A stretch of 64,000 nt of DNA from the NCBI GenBank assembly GCA_963971305.1, contig OZ020306.1, forward strand, positions 2,720,842 to 2,784,841, given 5' to 3'. Origin of the DNA: Arcuatula senhousia. Lineage: Eukaryota; Mollusca; Bivalvia; Mytilida; Mytilidae. The notes below the pieces were generated by a model. It was given only the letters and a program-made list of their open reading frames with translations. It did not search any database and was not told the DNA's origin. Shown one piece after another: positions 7,201 to 38,694 of this stretch (position 1 is the stretch's first letter; each line of letters starts with the position of its first letter). A program made the position numbers and the translations under genes.

Positions 7201-10200
7201 AAACACAGAGTCGTGCATGAGTTAACTGAGGGTGTAAGAGTATATCTTGAAAAATACAAAACAATAAATGGATTTATATCTAGTAAAATATACTTAGAAA
7301 TGAAACTGAAAAGAAGCTAGAACTTTTACACACACACATATATACAAAAAAAAAGAAAAAGAAAAAAAAAAGAGCCAAACAAGACACGTGGTTTACATGA
7401 AAGATCTCGCATATTTTGACAAAATTAATCAACCAAAACTAGCCTTGGAAGAGTGGAGACTTGAACCTGTCCATGTATTCTTCTGTCAGAGTGTCTCCCA
7501 CTGGTGCAGCACCACAAAGAGTACATCTAAGGGCAGACAAATCATAGCTACTAACCATCGGATGCTTGGCCATGAAGAGGGCCATAGGAGGAACCGACTG
7601 TAGGTACGATATCTGAAATCAAAATGAATTTGCACAAAGTTTAACGCCAATTCAAGTACCGTTAATTAAAACTGTGTTTAAGACTCATCAGAGACCCCAG
7701 GTGAAAAGTTTTAAGGCAGATATGGACTAGGAATACATTAGATGATGAAGGGAACACTAACCTTAGACATTTAGCAATTTCAACAAAAAATTCAGACTTT
7801 GATGAATCTCAAACATAAAAGTGTTACCTTAGGGGTTGTTGATTTAGTGTTTCCTTAAGGGTTCTTGATTTGTATACTTTTTTAATCAAAAGTTGTTGTT
7901 GTTTTTTTTCAGCCGAGGAAATATAGAGCAGACAAACAAAGACATACTTTAGTATATATCTTTCAATAAATTCAATGCTCCAATTCATCATATTTTATAG
8001 GTGGCAACCATTAACGTTTGGTGTGTTGCAGAAGCGTTTCATCTTCCTTAAATACATGAGTCCACGTTCGCAGGAGTTCGCATTAGTGTATGCTTGCAGT
8101 AAAATAGTTGTTTTTAAGCGGTCTTCAATCTTTGATAAATGAACTTCGAGATTCCAAATGACATAAATGATAAAAATACATTTTGGTATTTTTTTGTTAT
8201 CCATTTCCATGACAATAAAAAAAAAATGAGAAACGTATTCTTACGGTACCTTATGATTTTGTAGCGTCTTGAGGTAGAGTTCTGGTTCAAATTTCGGTAG
8301 TGTGACCACTTTATGACCACTTTGAAGAGCAAAGTAAACGATAACTCCCAATCCATATAAATGAAAGAATGGTAAAAGTCCTAGAAGACTGTCATCTGGT
8401 ATGGTGTTCAAACTAACGCTGGAATATTATGACAAGTCTTTTTGATTTATTCCATTTATTTGTCTTATCCGTTTTAGTAGATATCTTATAAAATTGACAC
8501 TTGATAAGATATCTTGTAAAATATGGAAGATATCTTATGCAGTTATCTTGAAAGAGGAATAGATAATAAATAAAAAGCTACACCGAGCGCAGCATGATAC
8601 GACAGCAAAATGTTGAACCCTGCAAGTTTGCAGCCCAACATGGATTGTCAAATGCTTTGGACACATGCAGACTATGGTGGACTAGCAAAGCTTTTTGACA
8701 CGTGCATTCTTTGGTGAATTTTCAATGCATATTTGAATTGTTTTATACATTAATTAATTCCAACCTTCAAGGAAAACTAATAAGGTGCTTTTGGCCACTT
8801 TAATCCCTAATTTCCCCAAAATGGTTGGATCTGATATTGCAAAACTGTTTGAAAAACGCAGACAAGGATTCCAATAAAATAAAAAGATTTTGAAAATCGG
8901 AATTTTAAAATTAAATAAAAGTAGATTTTTTGGGGTGTGGTCCCTTTTTGACCCTTGTAGCAATGAGATGGTGTAAGATACTTCAAAACTGTTAATGAAT
9001 TTTGTTGACAGAATCTACTAAGGAATACAATGGAAAAAATGAACAAAATCACTTGAAAAATAAATTTTCTACAGCACCCATTTTACCATTTTGGTTCTTA
9101 TGTCTCTGAAACAGTAGGGGCCACAATCCTATCATGCATGCTGAAACTTTCTATAGTGGTTAGAAACAGTGTAACAATTTGTCAGCCCACTAAAACTAAA
9201 ATCTTTGAATAGGGTTAGGGTTGGGGTTAGGTAATTAGCGTTTTTGGCCCCTTTGACCCAAAAATTCCCGAAACGGTTAGTAGAAATTGCAAATCTGGTT
9301 GAAAGATGCAGGCAGGAATTTTTACAAGTATTCCAATGAAAAAAAAGATTTTGAAAATCGGACCTCAAATAAAAAAGTTGACTTTTTGGGTGTGGCCCCA
9401 TTTTGACCCCTCATAGCAATGTAACGGTGCAAGAAACATCAAAACTGTTGTTACATTTTTTTGATAGAATTTATTAAGAAATAAAATTACAAAAAAAGAA
9501 CAAAATCGGATGAAAATTTAACATTGTACAGACAATTTGTCAATACACTTATTTTAGCCATTTTTGGCCTTTTTTTCTGAAATAGAAGGGCCAGAAACCC
9601 CAAATGCAATACCAACCTTTCTTTAGTGCTTAAAAACGTCAAATCAAAATTGTATAACAATTGGTTCACTATAACTGAAGTTATCGCACGGAAAACAAAG
9701 TGTCTATCGACGACAACGCCAACGACGATGACGACGACGACATTGCCTTAGCAAAAAATTGCGGTCGTATAAAAACAGAGTTACGTAGAATATCACCAAG
9801 ATTAACAAAACAGACATTGACTCTTGCATTAGAATATTTAATTGTATAGTTTTTTTCTTTAAAAGCAGGGATCGATCACGAAAACTAGAAAAAAAAGTGC
9901 CCTTCTGTTTGTGTCCTTATTTGTTTTTAAAGGTGGATTTTATAATTTCTTTTTCCTATAAATTTGTTTTTAGACAATCTTTGAACGTTAGCCCGGCCGC
10001 TTAACCCAAAATATCACAAGAATCGTTCATTTTATGATACAAGCATCAAGTTTGGCATGGATCAACTCCTTTGACATAAAAGCACATTAGCCGATCAAAA
10101 TATTCAAAATGGCGGTCATTTTTCAAGATGGCGAACAGTAACATACATTTTAAGATTTTCATCAAGTAAATTTAAATAAACTGCACAAGTTGTCAGAAAA

Positions 10201-13200
10201 TCGGCAAATTAAAGATATTCTATCTTAATTGACTTTATTTGCACAGATAAATTATAGGCAACGAAATAAACCATTGGTAGTCATTATTATTTTTCAATAT
10301 TGCCGACAAAAACCATAGTTGCAAGAGAAACGAGAAATGTTCTTGCACAAATATATTTTGACGCATTCCGATCGAATTTTAAAGAAAACTATTCGTCCAA
10401 TACTTTTTATTATGAGTATTGACAACAATATCACGCATATTTGTTAGGAAAAAAAATTGTTAGAGAGTTAGGACTAAAAGCGAAAGGAAACAATGATACT
10501 TAACGCATTTTTTAGGGGTAGAGGACTTTTTTCGTTATTTGTTTTGTTTTCTGTTTTTGTTTGCTGATGTTTTCAAACCATTCTGGCATGAATTTATGTA
10601 TGGGGTTTGAGAAAAAAAACTTTTTTGTTTGATTATTCTCGGTAATACTTAAACGATTCTTTATTAGTAGTAATGTGGATCACTCGAAGTCCAAATGTGT
10701 ACGTTACACTACTTTGTAAAGACAGGGGTAAGAATAAAATTGTTTGTGATTTTTTTTCTGGTTCCGAAAAAAAAAATAGAATTAGGAAAATAATATTACC
10801 TCAGCTGTTGAATATTAGAAACTAGGGATCTATGGTTCAACATGACGGCTTTAGGGAATCCTGTTGTTCCACTGGAGAACGGTAACACTAGAAGGTCATT
10901 CTCAAAGTCAAGCTTCAGATTTGATGGAAAGGCACTCCCATCATCTTCCATCAAAGACTGGAACGACCTGTATCCATCTGCTTCACCAATCGTTATAATT
11001 TGCTACAGTAACGGCATAAAGTGAGTAAATAAAGATAATATGAATACAAACAACTTTCGATCAATCTCACATGTCCAAGAAGAAAAGAGACAGACTGTAA
11101 AAATAAAATGGCACCAAAACATTTTACTGATTTTACTCAAGATCTTGCCCAAGTAGATTTCGATCAGATCCTAGACTGTGACAATGTTAATACAGCCTAT
11201 AATAAATTTAGCGACAAAGTGACCGAAATAGCGAATAAGCATGCCCCACACAAAGAAAGACGGGTACGTCAAGATCGGGTGCCTTATATGAACGCTACAC
11301 TTAGAAAAGAGATCTATAAAAAGAGAATGGTTTTCCACAAATATCAGAAATTTCCAACATCCCAGAACTGGAAAACGTATACTAAACAAAGAAACTATGT
11401 CACCAAACTGAAACGTAAATCTATGAATCAGTATGTTGTAGAACGATGTGTAGGGGGACCAAAGTCCAAGGACTTTTGGCCGACTATAAAACCCTTTCTT
11501 TCAAATAAAGGATGTAACATTTCAAAAGACACCATCATATCTGAAAACGACAATCTAGTTACTGACCAAAAAGAAGTGTGTGAAATTTTTAACAATTATT
11601 TCGTAAACGTAGCCAAAGATATTGGTTATTCAAATATAGTTATAGACAAAAACCATCCTAGTATTATTAAGATAGATGATATAATGACAAACAAAAGTGT
11701 AGAAAAACTAGAATTTAAACCTATAGATGAAGATTTTGTAACTAAATATAAGCACATAAATAGTATTAGTGTTAAAAAGGCTGTAGGTATGGACAATATT
11801 TCTCCACTTTTACTTAAATGTGCGTCGCCTATCATTGTAAAACCTATTACTAGGCTTATTAATATGTCACTCTCTTCTTCTGTTTTTCCAGATAATCTAA
11901 AGACAGCCAAGGTTTGCCCAATCTATAAGAAAAATAGTCTCTTGGATAAAGGTAACTATCGTCCTGTAAGCGTTTTGCCTGCAACTTCAAAATTGTTTGA
12001 ACGCGCTATCCATGTCCAGTTAACAGAACATTTTGACAAAATTTTCAACCCTTTCTTAGCTGCGTTCAGGGCAGGCTTTGGGTGTCAATTCACTCTCCAT
12101 TGAGTTGTGGAGGACTGGAAACAGGCGTTCGATGATGGCAAGTACGTGGGAGCCATACTGATGGACCTGTCGAAAGCTTTCGACTGCCTCCCCCACGACT
12201 TGTTATTATTGAAAATCCAGCACTATGAAGCTAGTGACAGTTCACTTCAACTCTTGGGTAGCTATCTGGAGAACAAAAGACAATGCGTCAAGGTGGGACA
12301 AGAATCTAGTTCTTATCAACATATTTTTAAAGGTGTACCACAGGGTTCAATACTTGGTCCCGTTAAGTTTAATATTTTTTCTTAACGACATTTTTTGTTT
12401 TGTAAATCAGTCATCTCTTTATAACTATGCTGATGATAATACTGTGTCTTATGCCAACAAAAACCCTGATGTCTTAAAATCTGTTTTAGAAGATGACAGC
12501 AAGTCACTTATTAGATGGTTTCATGATAATAAAATGAAGGCAAATCCTGATAAGTTTCAGGTCATATCACTTGGTACAAAAACAAATAAGCTGGAATTGA
12601 ACTTTGATCTAGGAGGTACTGTTATTAAATGTGAAAAAGAGGTTAAATTATTAGGAGTGACCATAGACTTTATGTTAGATTTCAACAGTCAAGTTACGAA
12701 TGCGTGTAGAAAAGCTGCTAGACAAATGAACGTTCTCAAGCGTATAGGCTGCCATTTAAACCGTCTGAGCAAAATTACAATCTATTATTCATTCATATTG
12801 TCCAATTTTAGCTTTTGTCCACTTACTTGGCATTTCTGCTCAGAGGCAAATACAACAAAAATTGAGAAAATTCAACAGCGCGCTTTGCGCTTTATTTACG
12901 AAGACAAAAACTCCTCCTATGAAAATTTGTTAGAAAAATCAAAGTTGCCATCCCTGAGAATACGACGCTTGAGAACGATTGCCATAGAGACTTTCAAAAT
13001 TGTAAACAATGAAAGTCCAGTGTTTTTACAAGATCTTGTAACACTAAAAAATAATGTTTATAACTTTAGGTATACCAACACAGCAGATGTGCCAAGAGTT
13101 CGGACCACCAGGTATGGACTGAAATCTTTTAGATATTCAGCCCCTAAGATATTGAACAGCCTCCCACAGGAGTTACGGAATCAGTCTAGCCTTGATCAGT

Positions 13201-15231
13201 TTAAGACCTTGATCAATACATGGACAGGCCCATCATGTTCATGTATGGTCTGTAAATCTTAGGGACTGAATATCTACATGTGTTTTTTTGTTTTCTTTTG
13301 TTATATGCTTATTAGTGCTTCTGCTTTGTGCTGGTTTTTAGCTGCTTATGTAAAACTATTTATTTTAGTGTGCTGCATGTTGCTTATTTGCATGATACTT
13401 TGTGGTTTTATCATTTGTATGTGCATGTCTTAATATTGTTATTTGTTTATACTGTAAGTCGGTATAAAAGCTCTTCAGAGCAGATGTTTTCTGTTTGTAT
13501 GTATGTACACAACCCGACTATAAATAAAGTTTTCTTTACTTTACTTTAACAAAATGGCGGAATCGGAAGCACAATGACCAAGATGGCCGCCGGAAGCGGA
13601 TATGACGCCAACAAGCATGCGAAGAAGCCCCTTATCCACCAATCCACCCGAACAACGATAAATGAACACCATATGTATACTACTCACTGGTAGAAAAATT
13701 TCAAAATTATGTCAAAGTGATAAATTGATGCAAAATAATGTCTCATACCTTCATTTCTTTTCGTAGGACTTCACTAGACCTGACAGCTTTGTTGACTATA
13801 GGTAGGAGTCCAGGGATAGTGACAATACAGGAGGGTCTGCTGATGTTATAACAACCAGCTATCTCATCTAAGAAAAAAAAACAAAATTACAAAAAGACAC
13901 AAACCCACACAGGTCAAAGAAATTTGTTATCCAGCATTCAAGAAACTAACAAATAAAAACAAAGTTCCAACCTTTCTACAATGTTAGATGCAAATACGGT
14001 TTTGGAATCGTCATATCGCACATAAAGCGCGATTTTTTGAAATATAATTGGATATTAAAAGAGTAAAAAAATACTGGTGTATGATATTTAAGAATGAAGA
14101 GGACAATAGAAGAAAATGGTAGATAACTGCATGGTTAGGATAAGGCTGCTGTTTACCATTTTATCTCATTGCCCCTTTCTTTGTTTAGAAAGTCATACAC
14201 AAATTAATAATTTGAATTTCAGATTTCCATTATTGATAATAGCCAGTGAAACCCCATTGAAAACTTTGTCACAAAATAGTAGCATTCAAACTTACCCGGA
14301 GTAAAGGCTGGGTTTGTAGTAGTCATGACGATCCCAGCAGCTGGTAGAGCTAAGAGGAGGATGACGTATTCTGGACTGTTGGTAGCATGTATACCTATGA
14401 CATCGCCTTTCTTGTACCCTAGTTTCATTAGAGCACTGGCAACTTTGATACTACATTGCTTGATTTGAGAAAATGAATACTTCTGACCAGTTATTCCGTC
14501 CACCTATTCAAATTATAAAACATTTATTGTTTCTAGGTGATTTCTTCCAGGTCAGGGTTATAAAATGGCGAATGTCGGGCGGCGGGCGGGGTGCAGGGAA
14601 GAAATTTTCGTCACAGTTTTCTCAACCACTACTAATCACAACCACACACACACCAAATATTTTATAAACAGCATTCCATAACGAGGGATTCGATTTCAGA
14701 TCTGTCTCTCACCTACTCGGCATTTTTTTACTTGCAATTTCAATTAAGTTAAGCTTAATAACTCACTTTCATGCACACACGAAATCCAAGCGAAGGACAT
14801 TATTTGATTCAAAGATTATTAGTTAATCAAAATTAACTTGAACAACATCATAGATTTAAAAGTGTTTTCCAGCATCAGTTTATCGATCATTTAGCTCTAT
14901 TTTGCACTATGAAATGACGCTTCCAATCGATTTTCATAAGTTTTCAACCTGTTTGCTAGTACTTTACCGGTTATAATGAGATTATTTTGTACAGAAAAAA
15001 AAAATACCAGTAACATATATATATACATACCACAGCTGTCTTATCGCCATGCTGTTCTAGCTTGTCAAACAAATATATCGGAAGTGGTTTCTGAACAAGA
15101 TCCAAGGCTGTATGTGGACTGTCGTATATATTTCCTGCTGCAGTTGACAGACTGCATGTAAATCCATGTGTCCCAAAATGCCCATATCTAAATATTGACA
15201 ACAGTCTGTTGCAAATAGATCGGGACGACAT
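4256..15231 (-). CDS. 4-coumarate:CoA ligase-like acyl-CoA synthetase (11 exons, 555 aa)
   Basis: Adenylate-forming enzyme expected to activate a carboxylate with ATP and CoA; the substrate cannot be read. Exons (gene order): 15231-15031, 14503-14296, 13867-13749, 11002-10800, 8418-8250, 7612-7444, 7013-6916, 6573-6429, 5872-5790, 4790-4625, 4362-4256; every junction keeps frame. Motifs: P-loop [11 protein letters not shown] (219-229), GYGMTE (357-362), GWMHTGD (433-439), hinge region [13 protein letters not shown] (453-465) and C-terminal PKTPSGK with the expected catalytic Lys546. Length fits the family (~550). Start: first ATG in the open frame (15231); the first ~35 residues are Arg/Ser-rich with no acidic residue, suggesting a mitochondrial presequence (inference). 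Oddities: intron 6 needs a GC donor, and the usual hinge Gly of KYKGFQ is Ala463. A retrotransposon sits antisense in intron 3. Confidence 0.92.
5453..5745 (+). repeat. SINE-like dispersed repeat, copy 1
   Basis: Diverged copy of the sequence at 20041-20345: both run from a 'taacccgcca' type start through 'atgt.cctgtc.taagcc.gga' and 'gttgaag..tg' to 'cttattccacatctt'. It lies in intron 9 of the CoA ligase gene. No coding capacity. Confidence 0.55.
7442..7444 (-). other. Non-canonical GC splice donor, CoA ligase intron 6
   Basis: Exon 6 must end ...CTTCCAAG at 7444 to join the next exon (GTTACGGTATG...) and give ...FQGYGMTE, which the family requires. The intron then begins GCTAGT rather than GT. 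A nearby GTTCAA would be a GT donor but would throw the GYGMTE motif out of frame. Confidence 0.7.
8757..9770 (+). repeat. Interspersed element with internal ~480-bp duplication, gcggtcgtata end
   Basis: Two blocks (about 8757-9040 and 9230-9490) share 'aagattttgaaaatcgga', 'tttttgacccttgtagcaat'-type words and spacing, so the element is internally duplicated. It closes with acgacgacgacat and 'ttgcggtcgtata', matching in inverted form the start of the element at 26291. Non-coding, in intron 4 of the CoA ligase gene. Confidence 0.6.
9771..10799. other. Intron 4 of CoA ligase, no gene seen
   Basis: AT-rich intronic sequence. A 'caaaatggcggtcatttttc' stretch near 10110 looks like old repeat DNA. 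No exon or RNA gene was found. Confidence 0.5.
11045..13549 (+). mobile_element. 5'-truncated non-LTR retrotransposon (CR1/jockey type), antisense in intron 3
   Basis: Carries reverse-transcriptase blocks in order: a linker region, [16 protein letters not shown], a 'FR.G.GCQ' block, [28 protein letters not shown], and the catalytic box YADDN, followed by a typical C-terminal thumb/tail region. No endonuclease domain precedes it, so the 5' end is missing. The 3' end shows AATAAA followed by short ctttactttacttt repeats, as in elements that end in microsatellites rather than poly(A). It starts only about 40 bp beyond exon 4 of the host gene and runs opposite to it. Exact ends are uncertain by tens of bases. 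Confidence 0.85.
11108..13262 (+). pseudogene. Reverse transcriptase ORF of the non-LTR element, broken
   Basis: The coding region is interrupted twice. An in-frame TGA at 12101-12103 splits the palm after the GCQ block; the reading frame continues directly after it (DLSKAFD). A one-base gain in the T run near 12376-12384 then shifts the frame just after GSILGPV, so the YADDN box is read in another frame up to the stop at 13260-13262. The element therefore cannot make a working enzyme as it stands. Confidence 0.85.
13550..13748. other. Intron 3 remnant beside the retrotransposon
   Basis: Short unique-looking sequence with 'aaatggcgg' and 'aagatggccgccgg' words between the element's 3' end and exon 3. 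Nothing else was recognised. Confidence 0.4.
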
Positions 15232-17629
15232 TATAAGCTTTTTCTCTAATTGCAATAGTATTCTATTTTTATAACACAAGAAATTCGATATGAAAACAAA
15301 CTATAATATAGGTCGAGTAAAACTATAAGCGACACGACCTACATATGTAGTTAGAAGTCAGCAAGTAGCAGTGGTCGCTGCTCTTCGTTTTGAATTGACC
15401 AAAGATTTATAATATATCACACGGGACGTAGTGGAACTCTTGAGAACACTCGCTGTTACTGACAGCCCGGACAGACAGCTAGCTAAGAGGCATCTATACA
15501 ATGATGTAAAAAATGAAATACACGATCCGATACAACACTTCAAACAACTAAAGATATAGTGTTATAAGTTATCTTGCTGTTATTCGTGTCATTGCCAAAT
15601 GTTCAAGATGGAAAATAAAAAATATCATTAGGCAAGCAAAAAAGTTCTTGACAGACAAAAGTTCAAATCCTACATCGAACTCACGTAAAAAGAGGATGGA
15701 TCAATGTTAAAGTACTTAAAGGTAGTTTGTCCTTATATATATTTGAGATATTTGATTTTTCTGATTATTTTGATTTCGTTCGTTTTTTTCATTTTCCAAC
15801 ACTTTTTTTTTTGAATGGTGATTTCCAATGTTTGGGTTCTAGTGCTGCTGATGAGGAATAAAATTCCAAAATGGCCATACAGCTCTTAAAAATTCTTTGC
15901 TGTTGGAGTTAACACCTAATTAAATTAAATTTGCACCCCCCTTTGAAAAGCCCTGGCTATACTTAACAAGAAGGGATATGGTTAAAACCATATCCATTGG
16001 TACTCGAGTTACATATATGGCACAGTTAGGCTCCTGAAATATGCATAATGCATTTAGCATCATAGTAATACCTACCTTACTAGAATGAAAGATAAGGTTG
16101 AAGGTATTCATTCATTGTTATAAGCATCATTTGAACAAACCGTACCAATATGTTTTTATGGCACTTTCTAGCTATAAAACAATATGGGAATTGAATAATT
16201 CTTTTGTAGGTGGTCATTCGTCTGGAAGAACAGGTTACAGTTAATTTCGAAGCATACGATTGCTTAGTATCATAAGGTGCACCTACTACTGGTTTTTGGC
16301 ATTGCAAACTGACAAAATGTTGATAGGACAGGCCACCCAGCTAAGCTCAAAAGGGCCTTGAAAGCCTTTTATAATTTTTAACGTTTGGCTTCCCACGACT
16401 CTGTGGATCTGAAAAAGTCCAAATGAAAAAAATCCCAGAAAGACCTGATTATTATCTGGACTAAAAATAATCCTCGTTCAACAAGTCGTTGCTCAAAAGT
16501 TTGTTTTGAGAAATTTTAACTGTCTGTAGTAGGGGGGGGTTAACTTCAATTATAAAGGTATACGTGCGGCCCAAAAGGGTCTACTTTAGAAGTTCAGTGG
16601 AAATTTCAATGTTGTATATATGAAAAGGTATACTTTTCACAAATGTCATATATCAATAGGAAAAGAGTGACTGAGCATCCTCATTTTGCTTCCTTGTAAC
16701 CTTAACTGTACAGGCATGATAACTTTTCCCATTCAAACTTTAATTTTAATAAATCTATAAAACATGTAAAGTTTAAACATATTCTGTGTAATTTCAAATG
16801 CATTAAAAATATATGAATGGGTTTCTTTTTTTAGCAGGCCAATATATGAATAGGGTGGGTATAGAAGAAGAAGAAGAATATTTTATAAAACTTCTGGGCC
16901 GCACATATCTGAGTTACCCCCCCCCCAAGGTGGTCTGTAGTGTAGGGTATTCCGGACAACAGAATTTTTTAGTAGTTAAATTATCTCGTTGAGCCTCAAG
17001 TCAAAGTATTACTGATGTCTCTCAAACATGTTGTGTACATGCACATGAAACTAAGAACGAATTGATCCACAATGATCCAGCCATCTTGTTTTCATAAAAT
17101 AACATCACGAGTCCAATGCCTTATTGATAACTTTAAAACAATTACACGTGAAATTATATCATTAAGATCACAAAATGTTTGCATGGTTCATAAATACATA
17201 AGTAGAGAGTTGCCAAAACGATAAAACGATGAAAAAATTAACATATCTTGAAAAGTTCAATCTGGCTACTGAGATAAAAATAGTTCGCGCAGTAATATAA
17301 GAAATTTAACTGCTTATAGCGCGATAATGCACCGAATGGTGACTTTTCGGTATTTTATTTTTTAATTGATCATTGATAAAATTTTACACATACTCTAATT
17401 TATTCACAAACTGGCATTAAAATCAATAATCATGACGAACTATTTTACATCCTATTATGCAACATACGAATCGTTATGCAATCGACAACAGGGTGAATCT
17501 AAGTATACATCTAGAATAGATATTCGAGAATAAGTCTCTCGTATGAAAAGATCAATAAAAGTCACCAAAATAATCAGAAAAGGTAACGCCGCCGCTGCAC
17601 AGTATACAATGTTTTACGTAAAAGACTTA
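15232..17629. other. Upstream flank of the CoA ligase and intergenic DNA
   Basis: The ligase promoter should lie just above 15231, but no reliable TATA or initiator could be singled out. Plus-strand 15414-15560 is an open stretch of about 48 codons (reading ...RDVVELLRTLAVTDSPDRQLAKRHLYND... in part) that ends at TAG; it has some coding texture and could be a gene or transposon fragment. The rest is AT-rich with no recognised gene. Confidence 0.4.
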
Positions 17630-21028: not shown

Positions 21029-21040
21029 TATATATATATA

Positions 21041-21212
21041 TATATGTTGTGTACAAGTTGTAATTTTGTACAAGTTATAACATGTACAAAATATTTGTAC
21101 ATGTTATAACTTGTACGGACCAAAAATACAAGTTATAACATGTACAATTTTAGCCTGTACATGTTATAACTTGTACAAAATAATGCAAAAAATCGGGTTT
21201 AACTTGTACAAC
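21041..21212 (+). repeat. Left terminal inverted repeat
   Basis: Runs from 'tatatgttgtgtacaagttg' to 'gtttaacttgtaca'. Holds four to five copies of the GTACAAGTTATAAC-type unit in alternating orientation, so it can fold on itself as well as pair with the right arm. Confidence 0.8.
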
Positions 21213-22217
21213 ATTTATTTCAAAAGTAGCTACATGAAATAATTATCATTTTAAATAAAAGAAAATCAATATTGATCAATGTTAACACTTATTAACAAAG
21301 TGAATATTTTTTGTTTTGTTTTGACATATCAAATAAACCAAAATTAAAGGAATAAAAGATTTTTGGTTTTTTTTCTAATTTTTTTTTCTGCAATAAAGTT
21401 GAATCTGATGCATATTTTTTTAAATGTAACTGTTTACAACTACAAGTTTTGACAACATGTTTGGTACATGTCATTCAATTTTTAGAAAAAAATTAAGAAT
21501 AAATAAGTTTTTACAGACCATACTGATAGTACGTTGTTATAAAGGCAACAATTATAAGTATATGACCAGAAAATGTCAATACATGTAGTCCAATTCTGAT
21601 CTGATATTATTTCCTTTAAGTCGATCTCTGGATTGCAACAAGAAATATAAAACATTACATGTACATCCCAAATCTGTTGAATATGGTTTATGAAATATCT
21701 AAATAGGCATTTACATGTTTATGTTAAAATCTAACAAAAATATGAACGCAAGAACTTCTTTTTATAATAACTAATATTTAACCTCTGGTACTAAACAAAT
21801 GATTTTTATGACTTGCTTTTTCAGGTCGGTCCACTATTGTGTCCTTTTTTCCTCTATTTTTTTAAGTAAGTTTTCTTTGTGGGTTTCTTAATAAAGTCTC
21901 CTTTACTGCTCAACTTGGTTTGGCTTTATGTCACATTAGTTTCCCGATTCGCAATTAATGGAAGATGATAGTTTTGTGCTGAAAAACCTGCTTTCATCCA
22001 ACCCCCATTCCTTTTGAAATGTCCATACCAAGTCAGGGTCATTATGAATCTACAACAGATTCATTTTCCCTAGTATGTCTGACATTTGGTATTGATCATC
22101 TTTGTTCTCTAATATTGTTTTAAGTACTTTAATTCCTTAAAATAATGTTTTGAATAAGGTTTTAAATCCTTATTTTAGTCAAAAGTGTTAGTATTTTAAA
22201 AATATTTGTATTAATAT

Positions 22218-22400
22218 ATTTTGTACAAGTTAAACCTCATTTTTGTCATTATTTTGTACAAGTTATAACATGTACATGTACAGGCTAAAATTGTACATGT
22301 TATAACTTGTATTTTTGGTCCGTACAAGTTATAACTTGTACAAATATTTTGTACATGTTATAACTTGTACAAAATTACAACTTGTACACAACATATATAT
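22218..22400 (-). repeat. Right terminal inverted repeat
   Basis: Inverted partner of 21041-21212, ending 'acttgtacacaacatatata'. One palindrome has an extra 'tacatg' step relative to the left arm, showing independent small changes since insertion. Confidence 0.8.
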
Positions 22401-22621
22401 AGGTTATTTAAAGGCGATGAACATTAAATGGATGATAAAATGAACATGAAATCATGATGAGAAACGAAATATGTGGATGGGATGGTTAACAAAGGAACAG
22501 TAAAATTTTAAGACCACATGAAGAGGGGAGAGGTGGGTAGGGGCAGAAAATTTAGCCTTTGGCGGCTCACAAAGTTGACTTTTATACGTGCACAAAGCGT
22601 GGCACTCTTCACACACGTTGG

Positions 22622-23162: not shown

Positions 23163-25908
23163 ATGTCTTGGGACAAATATATGTTGGTAGCGGCTTTAGA
23201 TTTCGGTACGACATATTCTGGGTATGCCTTCTCATTGAAACATAACTACAATAAAGATCCCCTGAAGATCCATTCCAACCAGGCATGGAACGCTGGTGGC
23301 AGACAGCTAATGTCATTGAAAACTCCCACGTGTCTTCTGCTGGACAACTCCAAACAGTTCCTGTCGTTTGGTTACGAGGCGGAGAATGACTATGCAAACA
23401 TCGCTATGGATGGAGAGCAGAAAAACCATTACTACTTTTATAGATTTAAGATGAAACTCCATAACAACAGGGTAAACCATACATATAAATCCTATTTTGG
23501 TGAAAAAGAATTGTCAAAATTGATAGAAAGAAACATTTAAGATGAACTCTAAAAATTAAACTGGGTCAACTACTCTCGAAAAGGCCATTAAATTGCAATT
23601 AAACAACAAATAATATAATATTTTAATTGGAAACTTATCCGTTTCAGCAAATAACAAAAGACATGCTTCTTGAAGACATAACAGGACGGGCTATGCCAGC
23701 TCTTGACGTTTTCTCACTGTCCATCCGGGCACTAAAGGATCATCTCCTACAGGAGTTAGAGAAACAAGGAACAGGAATGAAGGCTGACGAGATTAAATGG
23801 GTTTTAACGGTACCAGCTATTTGGTCAGACTCTGCCAAACAGTTCATGAGAGCCAGTGCTGAAAAGGTAAGAGTTATGCTGCAACCAGACTCGGGTAAAC
23901 AGTTCATGAGAGCCAGTGCTGAAAAGGTAAGACTTATGCTGCATTAAGTTTTGACTTAACAGGTCTTCGTATCCAGTAACGAAAAGGTAAGTCCTATGCT
24001 AAAGAGTTCATGAGAACCAGGACCATAAAGGTAAATCTATGCTTCAGCTGGACTCGCCAAAACAGTTCGCGAGAGCGAGTGCTGAAAAAGGTATTAAAGA
24101 CTTATGCTGCAGCTAGACTCGCGTAAGCATAAGCAGTTCATGGCTGTCAGAACTGAAAATGTTTGTTTTATAACTCTTTCTTTTTCATGTTAGTGGAAAG
24201 TTATTACATAAACAACACTACGTGTATTTATTAATGTACAGACATGTAATCTAGTTTTGTCGCCATTATAAATTTTAATCTGACAAACTAGGAGTTCGCT
24301 AGTTTGCTCATTGTTTATTCTAAAGAACAACGTCAACGTTTTCATTGTAAAAAGCTAACATTATGCTGTTTGTCATTTTTTTTTCTTTTCTGTAAATTTT
24401 GCTGTTCTGAATTTCAGGCTGACATACCAGGAGATCGTTTGCTTATTGCACTGGAACCGGAAGCTGCGTCAATTTATTGTCAGTATTTACCAATAGAAAA
24501 ACTTCAAGGAGCTGGCCAGGGATTTACCATGTCTAGAAAAGGGACTAAATTCATGGTGATTGATTTAGGAGGTATGATAAATTAAATACTAAGTATACCC
24601 CCTAAGCAATAATGGTCAGATACCCGGGTCAGTCACATAAGCTGCCAAATACTTGAGTAACTAATTGTATTTGTCATCCATTATCTCACGAACTTTTACA
24701 TTAAACTTAGAATCTTTTACAAGCGAATTTGTGCCACAGTTATCTTCAGAACAAAATGGACATCGTTTAACCTCAGCCTTACAAATGTGACTTTTCCGAA
24801 TCCAGAAAAAATCAAAAATTAAAAGGTTTTTTTGCATTTTATCTTTTGCATAGGAGGTACTGCAGACATCACTCTACACGAGAGGCAAGATGGCAGTAAA
24901 TTAAAAGAACTGTGTAAAGCTTCCGGTGACGCATGCGGAGGAACGTCCGTCGACAATGCGTTTTATCAAACGTTTGTCAAAATTTTAGGGGGTCCAGTAA
25001 TGAATACTCTGAGAACAGAATATACGTCGTCATACATGGATCTTTTCAGAGAGTTCGAAACAGTTAAAAGAACTATCAAATCAAACACATCCGGGAAAGT
25101 TAACTTAACCGTTCCGTTCGTTGTTTTAGATGAAATATGCAAGAAAGAACTAGGCGAAGATTTTCCATCGACACTTAAGTCCTCAACAATATCCGAAAAA
25201 GTATCACGGCTTGGTGACAAGCTTCGGTTCGAAGCAGAGTTTATGAGGTCACTTTTTAAAACCACCATCGAAAATATTGTTGGTCATGTGAGGGACATTA
25301 TGCGAAAGCCGGAAGCAGGCGACGTGAAGATATTTCTTCTAGTTGGTGGCTTTTCAGAATCACCATTGGTACAAGAAGCTATCAGAAAATTATTTCCAAA
25401 CCAGAGAGTTATCGTCCCTGAAGATTCGGGCTTGTCTGTTCTGAAAGGGGCGGTGCTTTTTGGACACAACCCGGATTTTATTTCTTCGCGGGTTGTACGA
25501 TGTACCTATGGAGTCAAAATTGCTCCAAAGTTTGATTCTGATAAGCACGATGAAAGAAAGCGCTACAAAATGGGTAATCAATCTTTTTGTAACGACATTT
25601 TCAGTAGCTTTGTGAAAGCAGATGATTCGATGTTGGCTGGACAAAAGATTCTACAAGTATATTCTACTACAAGACCATTTCAGGACCAAATGGATCTAAA
25701 AGTGTACGTTTCAACAGAATGTGAACCAAAATACGTTGATGATGGCGATTGTAGCTTCCTTGGCGAGCTTGATGTTTCGGTCCCAGAGCCTTCAGCTGAC
25801 GAACACCAACTAGCTGTGGAATTTCAATTTGGAAACACGGAACTGAATGTCACCGCTGTGGAAGTACCGTCCTTAAAGCCATGCAAGGCATCATTCAAAC
25901 TTATATAG
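23163..25908 (+). CDS. HSPA12-like HSP70 family protein, copy 1 (4 exons, 578 aa)
   Basis: Actin/HSP70-fold ATPase of the HSPA12 type, expected to be cytosolic; the client is unknown. Exons: 23163-23471, 23648-23866, 24418-24571, 24854-25908; all phases agree. Nucleotide-binding motifs are present: phosphate-1 DFGTTYSG (residues 13-20), phosphate-2 DLGGGTAD (225-232) and the adenosine motif IFLLVGGFSES (about 387-397). There is no classical HSP70 peptide-binding domain, as usual for HSPA12. ATG 23163 is chosen because it sits just before the phosphate-1 motif; an acceptor (ctttttag) at about 23119 suggests an upstream 5' UTR exon. The exon 2 donor is followed by a few decayed copies of itself. 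A perfect 48-bp duplication spans the stop. A paralogue lies at 31804-38694. Confidence 0.93.
23829..24170 (+). repeat. Relic exon-end/5' splice-site repeat in copy 1
   Basis: The end of exon 2 plus donor (AGTTCATGAGAGCCAGTG...GAAAAGGTAAG) is repeated once almost perfectly (60 bp, 23867-23926) and then as about four degraded units with 'gaaaaggtaag', 'cataaaggtaaa', 'gaaaaaggtatt' and 'gaaaatgtttg' in donor position. Use of the second donor would add 20 residues in frame. It is the short counterpart of the large array at 33556-36210. Confidence 0.85.
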
Positions 25909-25968
25909 CTACAAGATCATTTAAAGCCATGCAAGGCATCATTCAAACTTATATAGCTACAAGATCAT
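25873..25968 (+). repeat. Perfect 48-bp tandem duplication across the stop codon
   Basis: 25873-25920 and 25921-25968 are identical. The unit starts with the last 11 codons, includes the TAG and 12 bases beyond it. The duplicated part lies in the 3' UTR, so the protein is not changed. The paralogue at 38694 lacks it. Confidence 0.92.
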
Positions 25969-26161
25969 TTAGAAAGGATGTTGATGTATATAGTATAAAT
26001 CGATTTATCCCAGTACATATTTGTCCTCTTTTTTTAAACAGTTGACATGAGTATGACTGAAAAATCTCAAAGTTTGTCGAGGGAAATGATAGGTCTGATA
26101 TTGTTTGGTCAAAGACCTGAAAGATAGTCAGTGAAGTAGTTTTAATGTATTGTTAAATTGA

Positions 26162-31803: not shown

Positions 31804-34800
31804 ATGTCTTGTGACAAATACATGTTGGTAGCGGCCTTAGATTTCGGAACGACATATTCTGGTTATGCCTTCTCATTAAAACATACATACAATAAAGATC
31901 CCCTTAAGATCCACGCCAACCAGGCATGGAACGCTGGCGGCAGACAGCTAATGTCATTGAAAACTCCCACGTGTCTTCTGCTGGACAACTCCAAACAGTT
32001 CCTGTCGTTTGGTTACGAGGCGGAGAATGACTATGCAAACATCGCTATGGATGGGGAGCAGAAAAACCATTACTACTTTTATAGATTTAAGATGAAACTC
32101 CATAACAACAGGGTAAACCATAACTATATATAAATTTCATTATTTGTTAAAAAAAATGGCAATATTCATAACTAGAAAATGTGCATATAAGCCACAGGAT
32201 GGCTCACCTGTTCTTGAAATATCATTGACCCCCAAAGTGTATAACCTGGGATATGGACCTTTACCATTAAAATAATCAAAAGTGTTCATGCGTAAAATAT
32301 AGGTCTCAGTGACCTAATATCTTGTGGGTTGTGCCGTGCTACCAAGACTCATCTAGTCGTGAAATATCATTGACCTCTTATATGAATATCCTGGTATGAA
32401 CCTATAACAAGAACTTAACCAAAGTCGTTCATGCATAAAATATAGGTCACAGTGACCAAATTTCTATTGATTGGTGTCATGTTAGTTACCCAAGACACAT
32501 CTAGTGGTGAAATACCATTGACCCGCCCCCCTCCCAAGATGACATAGTAGTATTCGAGATATGGACCTTAACCAAAGTCATTCATGTGTTGAATATAGGT
32601 CGCAGTGACCTAATTTCAAGTGGGTGGTGTCACCTTACCCATGACACATCTAGTGGTGAAAAATCATTGACCCATACCATCTAGTATCCAACTTATGGAC
32701 CTTAACCATCAACTTAACCAAAGACGTTAATGCATGACATATATGTCATAGTGACCCAATTTCTACTTGGCGGTGTAGCCCTATCCAAGACCCATCAAGT
32801 GGTGAAATATCATTGACCCCCAACATCTAGTATCTGAGTAATGGACTTTAACCAAGAACTAAACAAAAGTGTTACGAACGGACGGACAAGGGTAAAACTA
32901 TATGGCCGATCTACACACGTGGTCGGGCCATAAAAAGAAACATTTAAGATGAACTCTTGAAGAATATGCAAGCTGCAAGACACCATATATTGTCTTTGGA
33001 AAAAAGAAAATTCTACAAAACTAGTTAAAAGTCTGTTGTCAAAAAGCATTTCATTTCTTTCAATTTTGTTGTTGAGTTATTCTAGCAACCTCGGGCGATT
33101 AAATTAGCTCTGTAAAGAAGCCTGATATATTGTAGGGACTCGAACCGGTAGAAGCATTTATAAATCCATCCCAGCAATGCAATGCACTAAGCTGTTCCGA
33201 TAGGCGTTTCCATAGCAACGCTATTACGGTTATTCATGTTATTGGGCATGCGATTACAGACAAACAAACTATTCAACACAAAGACAAATTAAAAGTGCCC
33301 CATTTTAAGTGATAAAGTCTTTGTCCGATTTTAGGCTAAAGCTTACTCCATATCCGGAAACTTATCTGTTTCAGCAAATAACAAAAGACATGCTTCTAGA
33401 AGACATAACAGGACGGGCTATGCCAGCTCTAGACGTTTTCTCACTGTCCATCCGGGCACTAAAGGATCATCTCCTACAGGAGTTAGAGAAACAAGGAACA
33501 GGAATGAAGGCTGACGAGATTAAATGGGTTTTAACGGTACCAGCTATCTGGTCAGACTCTGCAAAACAGTTCATGAGAGCCAGTGCTGAAAAGGTAAGAG
33601 TTATGCTGAACCAGACTCGGGTAAACAGTTCATGAGAGCCAGTGCTGAAAAGGTAAGAGTTATGCTGCAACCAGACTCAGGTAAACAGTTCATGAGAGCT
33701 AGTGCTGAAAAGGTAAGACTTATGCTGCAACCAGACTCGGGTAAACAGTTCATGAGAGCTAGTGCTGAAAAGGTAAGGGTTATGCTGCAACCAGACTCGG
33801 GTAAACAGTTCATGAGAGCTAGTGCTGAAAAGGTAAGGGTTATGCTGCAACCATACTCGGGTTAACAATTCATGAGAGCCAGTGCTGAAAAGGTAAGAGT
33901 TATGCTGCAACCAGACTCGGGTAAACTGTTCATGAGAACCAGTGCTTAAAAGGTAAGGGTTATGCTGCAACCAGACTTGGGTTAACTCTTTATGAGAGCC
34001 AGTGCTGAAACGGTAAGAGATGCTGCAACCAAACTCGGGTTAACTGTTCATGAGAGCCAGTGCTGAAAAGGTAAGAGATGCTGCAACCAAACTCGGGTTA
34101 AGTGTTCATGAGAGCCAGTGCCGAAAAGGTAAGAGATGCTGCAACCAGACTCGGCAAAACAGTTCATGAGAGCTAGTGCTGAAAATGTAAGGGATGCTGC
34201 AATCAGACTCGGGTTAACTCTTCATGAGAGCAAGTGCTGAAAAGGTAAGAGATGCTGCAATCAGACTCGGGTAAACTGTTCATGAGAGCCAGTGCTGAAA
34301 AGGTAAGAGATGCTGCAATCAGACTCGGGTTAACTCTTCATGAGAGCCAGTGCTAAAAAGGTAAGAGGTGCTGCAACCAGACTCGGGTTAACTGTTCATG
34401 AGAGCCAGTGCTGAAAAGGTAAGAGATGCTGCAACCAGACTCGGCAAAACAGTTCGAAAAGGTAAGGGATGCTGCAACCAGACTCGGGTAAAACTGTTAA
34501 TGAGAGCCAGTGCTGAAAAGGTAAGACTTATGCTGCAACCAGACTCGGGTAAACTGTTCATGAGAGCCAGTGTCAAAAAGGTAAGAGATGCTGCAATCAG
34601 ACTCGGGTAAACAGTTCATGAGAGCTAGTGCTGAAAAGGTAAGACTTATGCTGCAACCAGACTCGGGTAAACTGTTCATGAGAGCCAGTGTCAAAAAGGT
34701 AAGAGATGCTGCAATCAGACTCGGGTAAACAGTTAATGAGAGCTAGTTCTGAAAAGGTAAGAGATGCTGCAACCAGACTCGGGTAAACAGTTCATGAGAG

Positions 34801-37800
34801 CCAGTGCTGAAAAGGTAAGAGTTATGCTGCAACCAGACTCAGGTAAACAGTTCATGAGAGCTAGTGCTGAAAAGGTAAGACTTATGCTGCAACCAGACTC
34901 GGGTAAACAGTTCATGAGAGCTAGTGCTGAAAAGGTAAGGGTTATGCTGCAACCAGACTCGGGTAAACAGTTCATGAGAGCTAGTGCTGAAAAGGTAAGG
35001 GTTATGCTGCAACCATACTCGGGTTAACAATTCATGAGAGCCAGTGCTGAAAAGGTAAGAGTTATGCTGCAACCAGACTCGGGTAAACTGTTCATGAGAA
35101 CCAGTGCTTAAAAGGTAAGGGTTATGCTGCAACCAGACTTGGGTTAACTCTTCATGAGAGCCAGTGCTGAAACGGTAAGAGATGCTGCAACCAAACTCGG
35201 GTTAACTGTTCATGAGAGCCAGTGCTGAAAAGGTAAGAGATGCTGCAACCAAACTCGGGTTAAGTGTTCATGAGAGCCAGTGCCGAAAAGGTAAGAGATG
35301 CTGCAACCAGACTCGGCAAAACAGTTCATGAGAGCTAGTGCTGAAAATGTAAGGGATGCTGCAATCAGACTCGGGTTAACTCTTCATGAGAGCAAGTGCT
35401 GAAAAGGTAAGAGATGCTGCAATCAGACTCGGGTAAACTGTTCATGAGAGCCAGTGCTGAAAAGGTAAGAGATGCTGCAATCAGACTCGGGTTAACTCTT
35501 CATGAGAGCCAGTGCTAAAAAGGTAAGAGGTGCTGCAACCAGACTCGGGTTAACTGTTCATGAGAGCCAGTGCTGAAAAGGTAAGAGATGCTGCAACCAG
35601 ACTCGGCAAAACAGTTCGAAAAGGTAAGGGATGCTGCAACCAGACTCGGGTAAAACTGTTAATGAGAGCCAGTGCTGAAAAGGTAAGACTTATGCTGCAA
35701 CCAGACTCGGGTAAACTGTTCATGAGAGCCAGTGTCAAAAAGGTAAGAGATGCTGCAATCAGACTCGGGTAAACAGTTCATGAGAGCTAGTGCTGAAAAG
35801 GTAAGACTTATGCTGCAACCAGACTCGGGTAAACTGTTCATGAGAGCCAGTGTCAAAAAGGTAAGAGATGCTGCAATCAGACTCGGGTAAACAGTTAATG
35901 AGAGCTAGTTCTGAAAAGGTAAGAGATGCTGCAACCAGACTCGGGTAAACTGTTCATGAGAGCCAGTGCCGAAAAGGTAAGACTTATGCTGCAAGCAGAC
36001 TCGGGTAAACTGTTTATGAGAGCCAGTGCAGAAAAGGTATTTATATAGAGTTATGCTGCAACCAGACTCGGCAAAACAATTCATGAGAGCCAGTGCAGAA
36101 AAGGTAATGGTTGAGGGTGATGCTGCAGCAGGACTCATACATTCACATAGTTTACGTCAGCCAGCACCGAAAGAGTAAGACTATTGATAAAAACAGACTC
36201 AGATAAACAGTTTATAACAGCTATAGGGCTGGGACGTTTACTCCTGTTGAAAAATGCAATACGTTTTCCAAAAGTTTTTTTTATGTTGGATATAAGTTTC
36301 TATTATATTTCAAATTTTCATATTAATGAAACCTACAAAACCATGTTAATTGTAGATTCTCTGTAGAACATTTTCATGTATTACTGTATTGTTTATCAAC
36401 TCTTCAGAAACACTGAAACATACGGTCCAGGTGAGCTAAAAGAAGTTTGTGGCTAGCTAGTTGCCTTGGAAACATCTTTAAAATGCTTAAGAATACCCTG
36501 AAAATTGACTTTATTTCAATTACAGGCCGGAATACCAGGAGATCGTCTGCTTATTGCACTAGAACCGGAAGCAGCGTCAATATATTGTCAATATCTACCT
36601 ATTGAGAAATTACAAGGAGCTGGTCAAGGATTTACCATGTCTAGAAAAGGGACAAAACTTATGGTTATTGATTTGGGAGGTAAATTAAATAATAACGCTT
36701 TCACTTGATTTGCAATATTCATTAATTTTGCGCCGTAAAAAGATAAACTTTGATTGTAAAGAAGCAAAGAGGCGCCAATGGGGAGGGGCATACGTTCGAG
36801 TGTCAAAAGTCCGAGAGGGCAACGACAAAATAAGTAAACATGAACGAGAACGGCACGAAGAAACACAAAACAAAAACAAAAAGCACAATATAAACCGAAA
36901 AGAAATCAACAACGCGAACCAAACTTTTAACGAGAGAAAAACTCAGTTGCTATAGTCTAAAATCCGTTTAAGGAAGACAAAACAAAACCCTATTACAAAA
37001 CAACATATGAACCCATCTGAGAGATAGAAATCCTATATTTGTCTACGAGCGCACGATGTCGTCCGTAAAATTTCTTGAGTGAAGACAGCAACCGAGAAGC
37101 AACATAACCTCGTGTTAGCAATTTTTTTTTGTAAGACGTGACGCTCTACCAAGGAAATCGATGCAAGTCCCGCAAGCTCTGGAGTAACGAATCAATTGTG
37201 AAAAGTCAACTCCATAAGCTGGAGCGGAGTGGGACGGAATGTTGCTATACAAGAAGGAAGTTGACGATTGGAAAGTTGAAGTCATCACGATTGCCATAGA
37301 GCTTTGTGGAAAGTCTTCCTTGAGAGTCTATTTCGAGATGTATATCCAAATATGAGGCAGACTTCCTAGAATCGGTTTTGTCCGTTATCTCAAGTTACTA
37401 AGGATATAACAGATGGATAAAGTCACCAAGTCGAGAATTGTTAAGCGAAAGGACATCATCAATATTACGGAATTAAAGTTTAAAAAGAGAGCTAGTGGGG
37501 TCTACGATCTGTTAATCCACTAAAAATGAGCATATATATATACCTATATAGAAAGATGAAATATAAATAAAAAAATGAAAACCTATGAGCTTCAGAAAAA
37601 AATTGGAGTGATATTTCTAATTCTTCTTCATTTTTTGTACAGGGGGCACAGCAGATATCACTGTTCACGAGAGGCAAGATGGTAGTAAATTAAAAGAACT
37701 ATGCAAGGCTTCCGGTGACGCATGCGGAGGAACATCCGTCGATAATGCGTTTTATCAAACTTTTATCAAAATTTTAGGGGGTCCAGTAATGAACACTCTG

Positions 37801-38694
37801 AGAACAGAATATACGTCAGCATATATGGATCTTTTCAGAGAATTTGAAACCGTTAAAAGAACTGTTAAATCAAACTCATCTGGAAAAGTAAACCTAACCG
37901 TTCCGTTCGTTGTTTTAGATGAAATTTGCAAGAAAGAGCTGGGCGAAGACTTCCCTTCGACTTTAAAGTCCTCAACAATAGCTGATAAATTATCTCATAT
38001 CGGTGATAAACTTCGGTTTGAAGCTGAATTTATGAAGTCACTTTTTAAAACCACCATTGAAAGTATAATTGGTCATGTGAGGGATATCATGCGAAAGCCC
38101 GAAGCAAGTGACGTGAAGATATTTCTTCTAGTTGGCGGGTTTTCTGAATCTCCATTGGTACAAGAGGCTATCAGAAAATCGTTTCCAAACCAGAGAGTTA
38201 TCGTCCCTGAAGATTCAGGCTTGTCTGTTCTGAAAGGGGCAGTGCTTTTTGGACACAAGCCGGATTTTATATCTTCGCGGGTGTCACGGTGTACCTATGG
38301 CGTCAAGGTTATTAAAAAGTTTGATTCTGACACGCATGACGAAAGAAGGCGTTTTAAAATGTGCGGCGAAGATTATTGCAACGACGTCTTCAGCAGTTTT
38401 GTTAAAGCAGATGACTCGATGTTGGCGGGACAAAAAATATTGCAGGTTTATAATACCACATCGCCATTTCAAACCCAGATGGGATTAAAAGTGTACGTTT
38501 CAGATGCTGATCCTAATTACGTTGACGATGACAGTTGTAACTTTCTTGGTGAGCTTGATGTAACAGTACCAGAGCCGTCCGCTGATGAACATCAACTGGC
38601 CGTGGAATTTCATTTCGGAAATACAGAACTTAATGTCACAGCTGTAGAAATTCCGTCTGTGACACCATGCAAGGCAACATTTAAACTTATTTAG
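31804..38694 (+). CDS. HSPA12-like HSP70 family protein, copy 2 (4 exons, 577 aa)
   Basis: Paralogue of the gene at 23163-25908 with the same exon plan: 31804-32112, 33375-33593, 36526-36679, 37643-38694; all phases agree. It keeps DFGTTYSG, DLGGGTAD and IFLLVGGFSES, so the ATPase core looks intact. Exon 2 encodes the same 73 residues as copy 1; exons 1 and 3 differ at two or three residues; the last third of exon 4 is clearly diverged (for example KKFDSDTHDERRRFKM against PKFDSDKHDERKRYKM). Intron 2 has swollen to 2.9 kb because the exon 2 end and donor are repeated about 43 times. Intron 1 carries an extra repeat insertion. The frame is open back to an acceptor at 31743, so a few more N-terminal codons cannot be excluded, but the ATG at 31804 matches copy 1. 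Confidence 0.93.
32180..32936 (+). repeat. Inserted ~147-bp x 5 tandem repeat in intron 1 of copy 2
   Basis: Five diverged units each carry 'gtgaaatatcattgaccc', 'atatggacctt', 'aatataggtc.cagtgacc' and 'ac.catctagt'. The array ends 'cgaacggacggacaagggta' and 'cgggccataaaaa'. Copy 1 has uninterrupted sequence here ('gatagaaagaaacatttaag' at 23521-23540), which resumes in copy 2 at 'gaaacatttaagatgaactc'. The block therefore looks inserted after the gene duplication. Confidence 0.75.
33130..33205 (-). repeat. tRNA-like sequence, possible SINE head
   Basis: On the minus strand CAGCTTAGTGCATTG resembles a polymerase III A box, and GGTTCGAGTCCC (33134-33145) is a close B box match, about 40 bp further on. 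The intervening arms do not form a convincing functional tRNA. A tRNA-derived SINE fragment is the best reading. Confidence 0.4.
33610..34771 (+). repeat. Higher-order block 1 (20 units, 1162 bp)
   Basis: This block recurs at 34772-35933 with a fixed offset of 1162 bp, including the rare 36-bp deleted unit and single-base variants such as 'accatactcgggttaacaat'. By eye I found a single difference (ctcttta at about 33989 against ctcttca). Confidence 0.92.
34772..35933 (+). repeat. Higher-order block 2 (20 units, 1162 bp)
   Basis: Near-identical copy of 33610-34771. Identity continues a few bases past the end, to about 35950, where the next unit begins 'aaactg' instead of 'aaacag'. This level of identity implies a recent duplication or an assembly duplication. 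Confidence 0.92.
36211..36525. other. Remainder of intron 2, copy 2
   Basis: AT-rich intron with a fragment 'acggtccaggtgagctaaaa' (36422-36441) from the dispersed repeat family seen at 29756-31345. The exon 3 acceptor (caattacag) ends at 36525. Confidence 0.6.
36680..37124. other. Intron 3 of copy 2, left part
   Basis: A-rich stretch with short open frames rich in Lys/Asn and no coding texture. Copy 1 has only a 282-bp intron here, so most of this is added sequence. Confidence 0.5.
37125..37340 (+). repeat. Dispersed repeat in intron 3 (pair with 28925-29130)
   Basis: Diverged copy of 28925-29130, sharing 'ctctggagtaacgaatcaat' with one base change and 'gttgaagtcatcacg'. It contributes to the intron growth relative to copy 1. 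Confidence 0.6.

Follow-up and report, generated by a model that had tools for sequence, protein, structure and literature searches.

A large, well-formed minisatellite spans an exon/intron border of an apparently working HSPA12-like gene of a mytilid-like genome, here called g2, and places 45 near-identical 5′ splice donors in front of a single acceptor. The array is real, and it adds a mollusc to a class of border-spanning repeats already described. We consider it likely that it belongs to the type described as mirages, that the first donor is used and that the later copies are removed with the intron. The window, the whole 64-kb stretch of DNA that was analysed (C4:2720842-2784841 of the assembly), also holds a tandem paralog, g1, with a short array at the same border.

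The gene and its array

Judged by frame and homology, g2 is an intact four-exon HSPA12-like gene and g1 its tandem paralog, both on the + strand of the window. The features are as follows, with a slash marking exon/intron borders and the basis of each assignment in brackets.

23163..23471, + strand: g1 exon 1, tandem paralog (frame, homology)
23648..23866, + strand: g1 exon 2 (frame, homology)
23826..24165, + strand: g1 array at the same border as in g2, with three exact AAAAG/GTAAG donors (23867, 23927, 23987) and about three decayed copies (TRF, border splitting)
24418..24571, + strand: g1 exon 3 (frame, homology)
24854..25908, + strand: g1 exon 4 with stop (frame, homology)
31804..32112, + strand: g2 exon 1, HSPA12-like (ORF, donor AGG/GTAAAC, homology)
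33375..33593, + strand: g2 exon 2, the last 41 nt of which seed the repeat (open, phase 0; acceptor TTTCAG; authentic donor 33594)
33553..36174, + strand: border-spanning tandem array of g2, 45 donor-type junctions (TRF, border splitting)
33609..34788, + strand: higher-order block, the first of two copies, the second lying 1162 nt downstream and differing at one position (sequence comparison)
35977..36220, + strand: older, decayed 3′ edge of the g2 array (units 43-45 and tail)
36526..36679, + strand: g2 exon 3, acceptor immediately before 36526 (frame, homology)
37643..38694, + strand: g2 exon 4 with stop (frame, homology)

Exon 2 of g2, its donor at 33594 and the acceptor before 36526 are predicted from homology and frame. 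The reading frames of g1 and g2 are intact (578 and 577 residues), their GT/AG borders are canonical, and both products show full-length similarity to HSPA12A/B-like proteins. Their closest database proteins, at 75-77%, are P0001, the product of a 2042-nt contig, and P0002, an HSPA12B-like protein of Mytilus galloprovincialis. A 598-residue g1 query with one repeat unit inserted matches P0002 at 75% over 100%, and g2 matches it at 77%; both database proteins read SAEK/A at the border, without an insert. The Pfam HSP70 model scored 18.3 bits on g1 exon 4 alone, slightly under the curated cut-off of 20.6, and g1 exons 1 and 2 alone gave no Pfam match.

Within g2, TRF reports an array at 33553-36107 with a period of 58 and 43.8 copies, and splitting the units at the border yields 45 exon/intron-type junctions in 33553-36174, the authentic donor included, with donors running from 33594 to 36175. 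Each unit consists of the final 41 nt of exon 2 and about 19 nt of intron; most are 58-60 nt long, with a few of 43, 67 and 71. The exact AAAAG/GTAAG stands in 38 of the 45 junctions, and GTAAG is intact in 43. These counts bear out the initial annotation, which had described an exon followed by about 43 tandem copies of its own 5′ splice site, a unit made of exon end, donor and a little intron, the retention of AAAAG/GTAAG in nearly all units, and dozens of near-identical donors ahead of one acceptor, at 36526. Outside the g2 array, the 10-mer AAAAGGTAAG occurs three times in the window, and all three occurrences lie within the homologous array of g1, which excludes chance. A 205-nt piece of the g2 array, searched against the whole assembly (1.036 Gb, 1803 contigs), gave 23 matches, in g1 and g2 alone (two candidate places, both scored).

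About half of the g2 array, some 20 units, is a second copy of the first 20 units: the block 33609-34788 recurs at +1162 with a single mismatch (at 33991) in 1180 positions. This copy either arose very recently or is a fault of the assembly, and the true copy number, read here from one haplotype in one assembly, depends on the duplication being real. At their 3′ ends the units are decayed in both g2 and g1.

Constraint on g2 and the fate of its later donors

The ratio dN/dS between g1 and g2 is 0.099, and at sites where two mussel-like outgroup proteins agree, each gene carries 12 unique amino-acid changes. By these measures the large array appears not to have visibly relaxed g2, and with the protein under such constraint the first donor is presumably chosen often enough to serve the gene; g2 could in principle have lost its function too recently for this to show. 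Synonymous divergence between the two genes is 0.18 in exon 1 and 0.09 in exon 2, against 0.82 in exon 3 and 0.71 in exon 4 (Fisher p = 2e-10 on rounded synonymous counts), and therefore g1 and g2 would have been homogenised in their 5′ halves as far as the array, most simply by gene conversion.

The later donors of g2 all have the same consequence for the reading frame. The first g2 repeat unit is 59 nt long, one short of 60, and splicing from any of the 44 later donors would run into the same in-frame TGA, 39 nt past the border, where it forms the 14th codon beyond it. The first g1 unit, at 60 nt, is open, and its donor at 23927 would add 20 in-frame residues, while the next exact g1 donor, at 23987, leads to a stop.

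We therefore picture the following history for g2, in which a border-spanning minisatellite is tolerated. A 60-nt tandem duplication would have copied the end of exon 2, the donor and the start of intron 2 of an HSPA12-like gene, and slippage or unequal exchange would then have expanded the array, the doubling of the 1162-nt block being the latest step, as the inner units were homogenised and the 3′ edge decayed. The gene would stay functional since the first donor keeps its place next to the real exon in a duplication of this sort: most productive mRNA would join donor 33594 to exon 3 at 36526, and the exon-like copies would be removed together with the intron. Use of a later donor would give a transcript with a premature stop, probably degraded by nonsense-mediated decay (NMD). 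The simplest reading is thus a common neutral minisatellite process, although when equal donors are duplicated the intron-proximal copy is often favoured, which would predict the use of late donors in g2. A search for a spliced retrocopy of the g2 exon 2-exon 3 junction (a 35-letter query, at most 3 mismatches) found none. Recursive splicing within the units was set aside on the sequence, with no pyrimidine tract before AG/GT.

Arrays at other HSPA12 borders and alternative readings

The genome lists 84 exon 2-like and 88 exon 1-like places, and in these HSPA12 paralogs only, we looked downstream of the borders for a further copy of exon end plus donor. Donor arrays were present at 6 of the 194 donors tested. 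At exon 2 these were g1, g2 and g3, or 3 of 83 informative donors (84 tested, L048 having only 24 nt downstream; L085, with z 5.1 and score 30, is left out of the count). At exon 1 they were g3 and g4, or 2 of 60, a set composed of 42 donors plus 18 of 20 (two without a donor found) and with no one-to-one matching to the 88 exon 1-like places. At exon 3 only g4 carried one (1 of 51). No array was seen at the 84 exon 2 acceptors; at exon 3, 2 of 55 acceptors exceeded z 6, of which L009 is weak with a score of 39. Among the tested places, some look like mutual duplicates (L024/L025 and L031/L032). The arrays of g3 and g4 are these:

C10: g3 (L059, the gene lying at C10:48864 onward) exon 1 donor array, 48 nt x13
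C10: g3 (L059) exon 2 donor array, 4 junctions
C10: g3 (L059) exon 3 acceptor array, degenerate, 49 nt x2.8
C6, minus strand: g4 exon 3 donor array, 12 units spaced exactly 67 nt apart
C6, minus strand: g4 exon 1 donor array, 37 nt, 90 junctions counted within about 5.1 kb, in the portions read on either side of C6:61376901-61377699 and C6:61378301-61379099

At least four HSPA12 paralogs of this genome, g1 to g4, thus carry donor arrays. The g4 frame is open in the exons seen, which do not include the last. In its exon 1 array, AGGTAA stands in 78 of the 90 sampled junctions, and if unbroken the array perhaps comprises about 138, so that the g2 array probably has a larger counterpart within the same genome. 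Searched genome-wide, the g3 exon 1 array matches itself alone, and since the units differ between borders the arrays would have separate origins, the genome-wide searches being those with the g2 array piece and the g3 exon 1 array.

No enrichment of tandem copies at borders was found: in raw counts, 6 of 194 donors compare with 97 of 1500 random 60-mers that were drawn away from borders in the same HSPA12 loci and are strongly matched again further downstream, these positives coming from 24 of the 84 loci. This control used 12 shuffles against 40-60, its draws may hit one array more than once, and it leaves out 150 nt around borders but keeps array-bearing loci (18 of the 97 positives lie in L009, L010, L059 and L069). 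With so many random 60-mers duplicated, tandem duplication appears to be common here and simply to include the borders. Conservation within the units gives a mixed picture. The donor 10-mer of g2 is the most conserved window of its unit, ranking first of 58 whether 21 or 43 units are used; its diversity is 0.019, where the mean is 0.139. Plain neutrality would not lead one to expect this. The 7-mer donor core of g4, by contrast, ranks 7 of 20, as measured on the 68 units that are exactly 37 nt long, 13 cut pieces of different length having been dropped. GT is intact in all 68 g4 units, but many other columns are invariant too, and in the 12 units of g3 the donor core shows no variation and most other columns likewise. 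There is therefore no consistent sign of copies being kept as donors.

These observations bear on the idea that the array is a poison-donor rheostat, in which equal donors compete, a share of transcripts is diverted to premature stops and NMD, and the output of the gene depends on how long the array is. The single premature stop behind all later donors, the conserved donor core of g2 and the presence of donor arrays in several paralogs fit this idea, but the ordinary conservation of the g4 core and the absence of border enrichment do not, and we regard it as unlikely. An artefact of size is a rather improbable alternative: the real array would hold about 23-25 units, inflated by a mis-assembled 1162-nt duplicate, as the near identity of the two blocks might suggest. 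The assembly may indeed hold duplicate places, the exon 2 borders at C10 and C153 (L024, L025) reading alike; yet recent block duplication is ordinary for minisatellites, and the assembly holds other arrays, with 12, with 13 and with at least 90 junctions, so a large size is not odd here. A wider view would be that arrays of tens to perhaps more than 100 equal donors arose repeatedly in HSPA12 stress-chaperone genes of this mollusc lineage and act as length-tunable poison-donor rheostats. The share of transcripts ending in premature stops would then follow from array length, a heritable and fast-mutating form of expression control; this seems to us very improbable.

U1 snRNP acts in transcription and in blocking early polyadenylation, and the 43 intact GTAAG sites within one intron of g2 might accordingly form a platform where unspliced donors recruit it, raising transcription or preventing early polyadenylation; the sister gene g1 has no long array and donor-core conservation is not consistent between arrays, and we give this little credence. 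The initial annotation had also raised variable-length proteins through donor choice, for which donor 23927 of g1 and the first three donors of g3 exon 1, open with +0, +16 and +32 residues, would offer some room, but in g2 none of the 44 later donors is open, so the claim falls for g2 as assembled and hardly merits belief in general. Protein searches point the same way, though weakly: another ORF of the window, taken as a coverage control, has a best match of only 69% in the protein set, and the species therefore seems absent from it. With that limit, junction-type peptide repeats were absent from the best 120 of 3023 HSPA12 hits, and the repeat ORF 33590-33862 had no candidate homolog in the protein set. 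Among the same best 120 hits, P0062 and P0070 carry an unrelated 22-residue repeat.

Relation to known border minisatellites

In amphioxus, mirages are described as minisatellite-like duplications of exon/intron borders with units of 10 to 160 bp, showing length instability and concerted evolution inside a cluster while regular splicing is undisturbed, and they are proposed as a source of new introns (PMC3087553). Their hosts are Adh3 and the globins BflGb6 and BflGb9, to which TnC and PGBD5 were added (PMC3087553, PMC3902484). The g2 array resembles them in a unit that spans the exon/intron border, and in near-identical inner blocks with decayed 3′ units in g2 and g1 (seen in one haplotype). 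The g2 frame is intact and constrained, and regular splicing of the gene is presumed. The array differs in that mirages are known from amphioxus, whereas the present arrays lie in mollusc HSPA12 genes, at several paralogs and borders within one family, and in size: g2 holds 45 junctions and g4 a projected 138 or so, where the two BflGb6 haplotypes, the mirages whose copy numbers were compared, have 6 and 3 units. They thus extend mirage minisatellites, known here from chordates, to a mollusc, at sizes far above the BflGb6 case.

Related chaperone genes, their frames open in the exons seen, offer natural series of 12, 13, 45 and perhaps 138 near-identical donors on which a question of long standing can be tested directly: among many equal 5′ splice sites, is the exon-anchored first or the acceptor-nearest one chosen? 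For gene finders they are a warning that exon-like intronic repeats can be silent.

A second relative is the human IFI6 gene (6-16, G1P3; Turri et al. 1995, cited in PMC4526556), where a minisatellite is said to offer multiple splice donors, two downstream repeat units being used to give three mRNA species. As in g2, repeat units at an exon/intron border carry donor sites, but the alternative IFI6 donors are said in that citing text to give protein isoforms, while the later g2 donors, none of them open, all lead to a stop. The initial annotation knew of no described case of such size; in kind this does not hold, given mirages, IFI6 and the seemingly larger g4 array of the same genome. No described case with as many copies was found, the copy numbers for comparison coming from one globin gene only, and the open-access literature yielded no such array in HSPA12 or in a bivalve, a weak negative. 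A search for border minisatellites in bivalves gave one paper, on an abalone kinase. Human segmental duplications likewise hold minisatellites at gene borders in young paralogs, namely internal tandem repeats at exon-intron boundaries with units of 30 bp in four copies on average (PMC2812944); half of these are reported to fall within coding exons and can be retained or removed by splicing.

Divergence between g1 and g2

Between the tandem HSPA12-like genes g1 and g2, dS is 0.09-0.18 in exons 1 and 2 and 0.7-0.8 in exons 3 and 4. Because the first two exons are far more alike than the last two, the comparison points to gene conversion between the genes, with an end that would lie close to the array, the tandem repeat spanning the g2 exon 2/intron 2 border.

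Window 23163-23926, + strand: 5' region of high likeness, g1
Window 31804-33800, + strand: 5' region of high likeness, g2

Border repeats at other sites

The g1 stop codon is spanned by a 48-nt tandem duplication (window 25873-25971), an exact repeat made up of the last coding nucleotides together with 12 nt of 3' UTR; this is a border duplication of the same kind as the splice-border arrays, here at a stop codon. In the paralog g3, exon 3 is preceded by a border repeat on the acceptor side (L059 1907-2044, contig C10), and repeats therefore stand at both ends of one g3 intron. A 37-nt array of exon-end/donor units takes up much of intron 1 of the paralog g4, with 90 junctions counted in the sampled parts and about 138 by projection.

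C6:61371400-61380384, minus strand: g4 region that holds the intron 1 array (pieces L069, L097, L114, L118-L120)

Other features of the window

Minus-strand ORFs at 4256-15300 resemble the exons of a gene for an acyl-CoA synthetase of the AMP-binding type, the PF13193 C-terminal domain lying at 4527-4853 and all the rest being assigned by eye. Two overlapping ORFs at 11039-13262 resemble reverse transcriptase (PF00078, score below cut-off) and are probably a broken LINE-type element. An inverted repeat at 21037-22401, with 128-nt arms that are 99% complementary and spaced 1109 nt apart, is possibly a foldback or MITE-like element.
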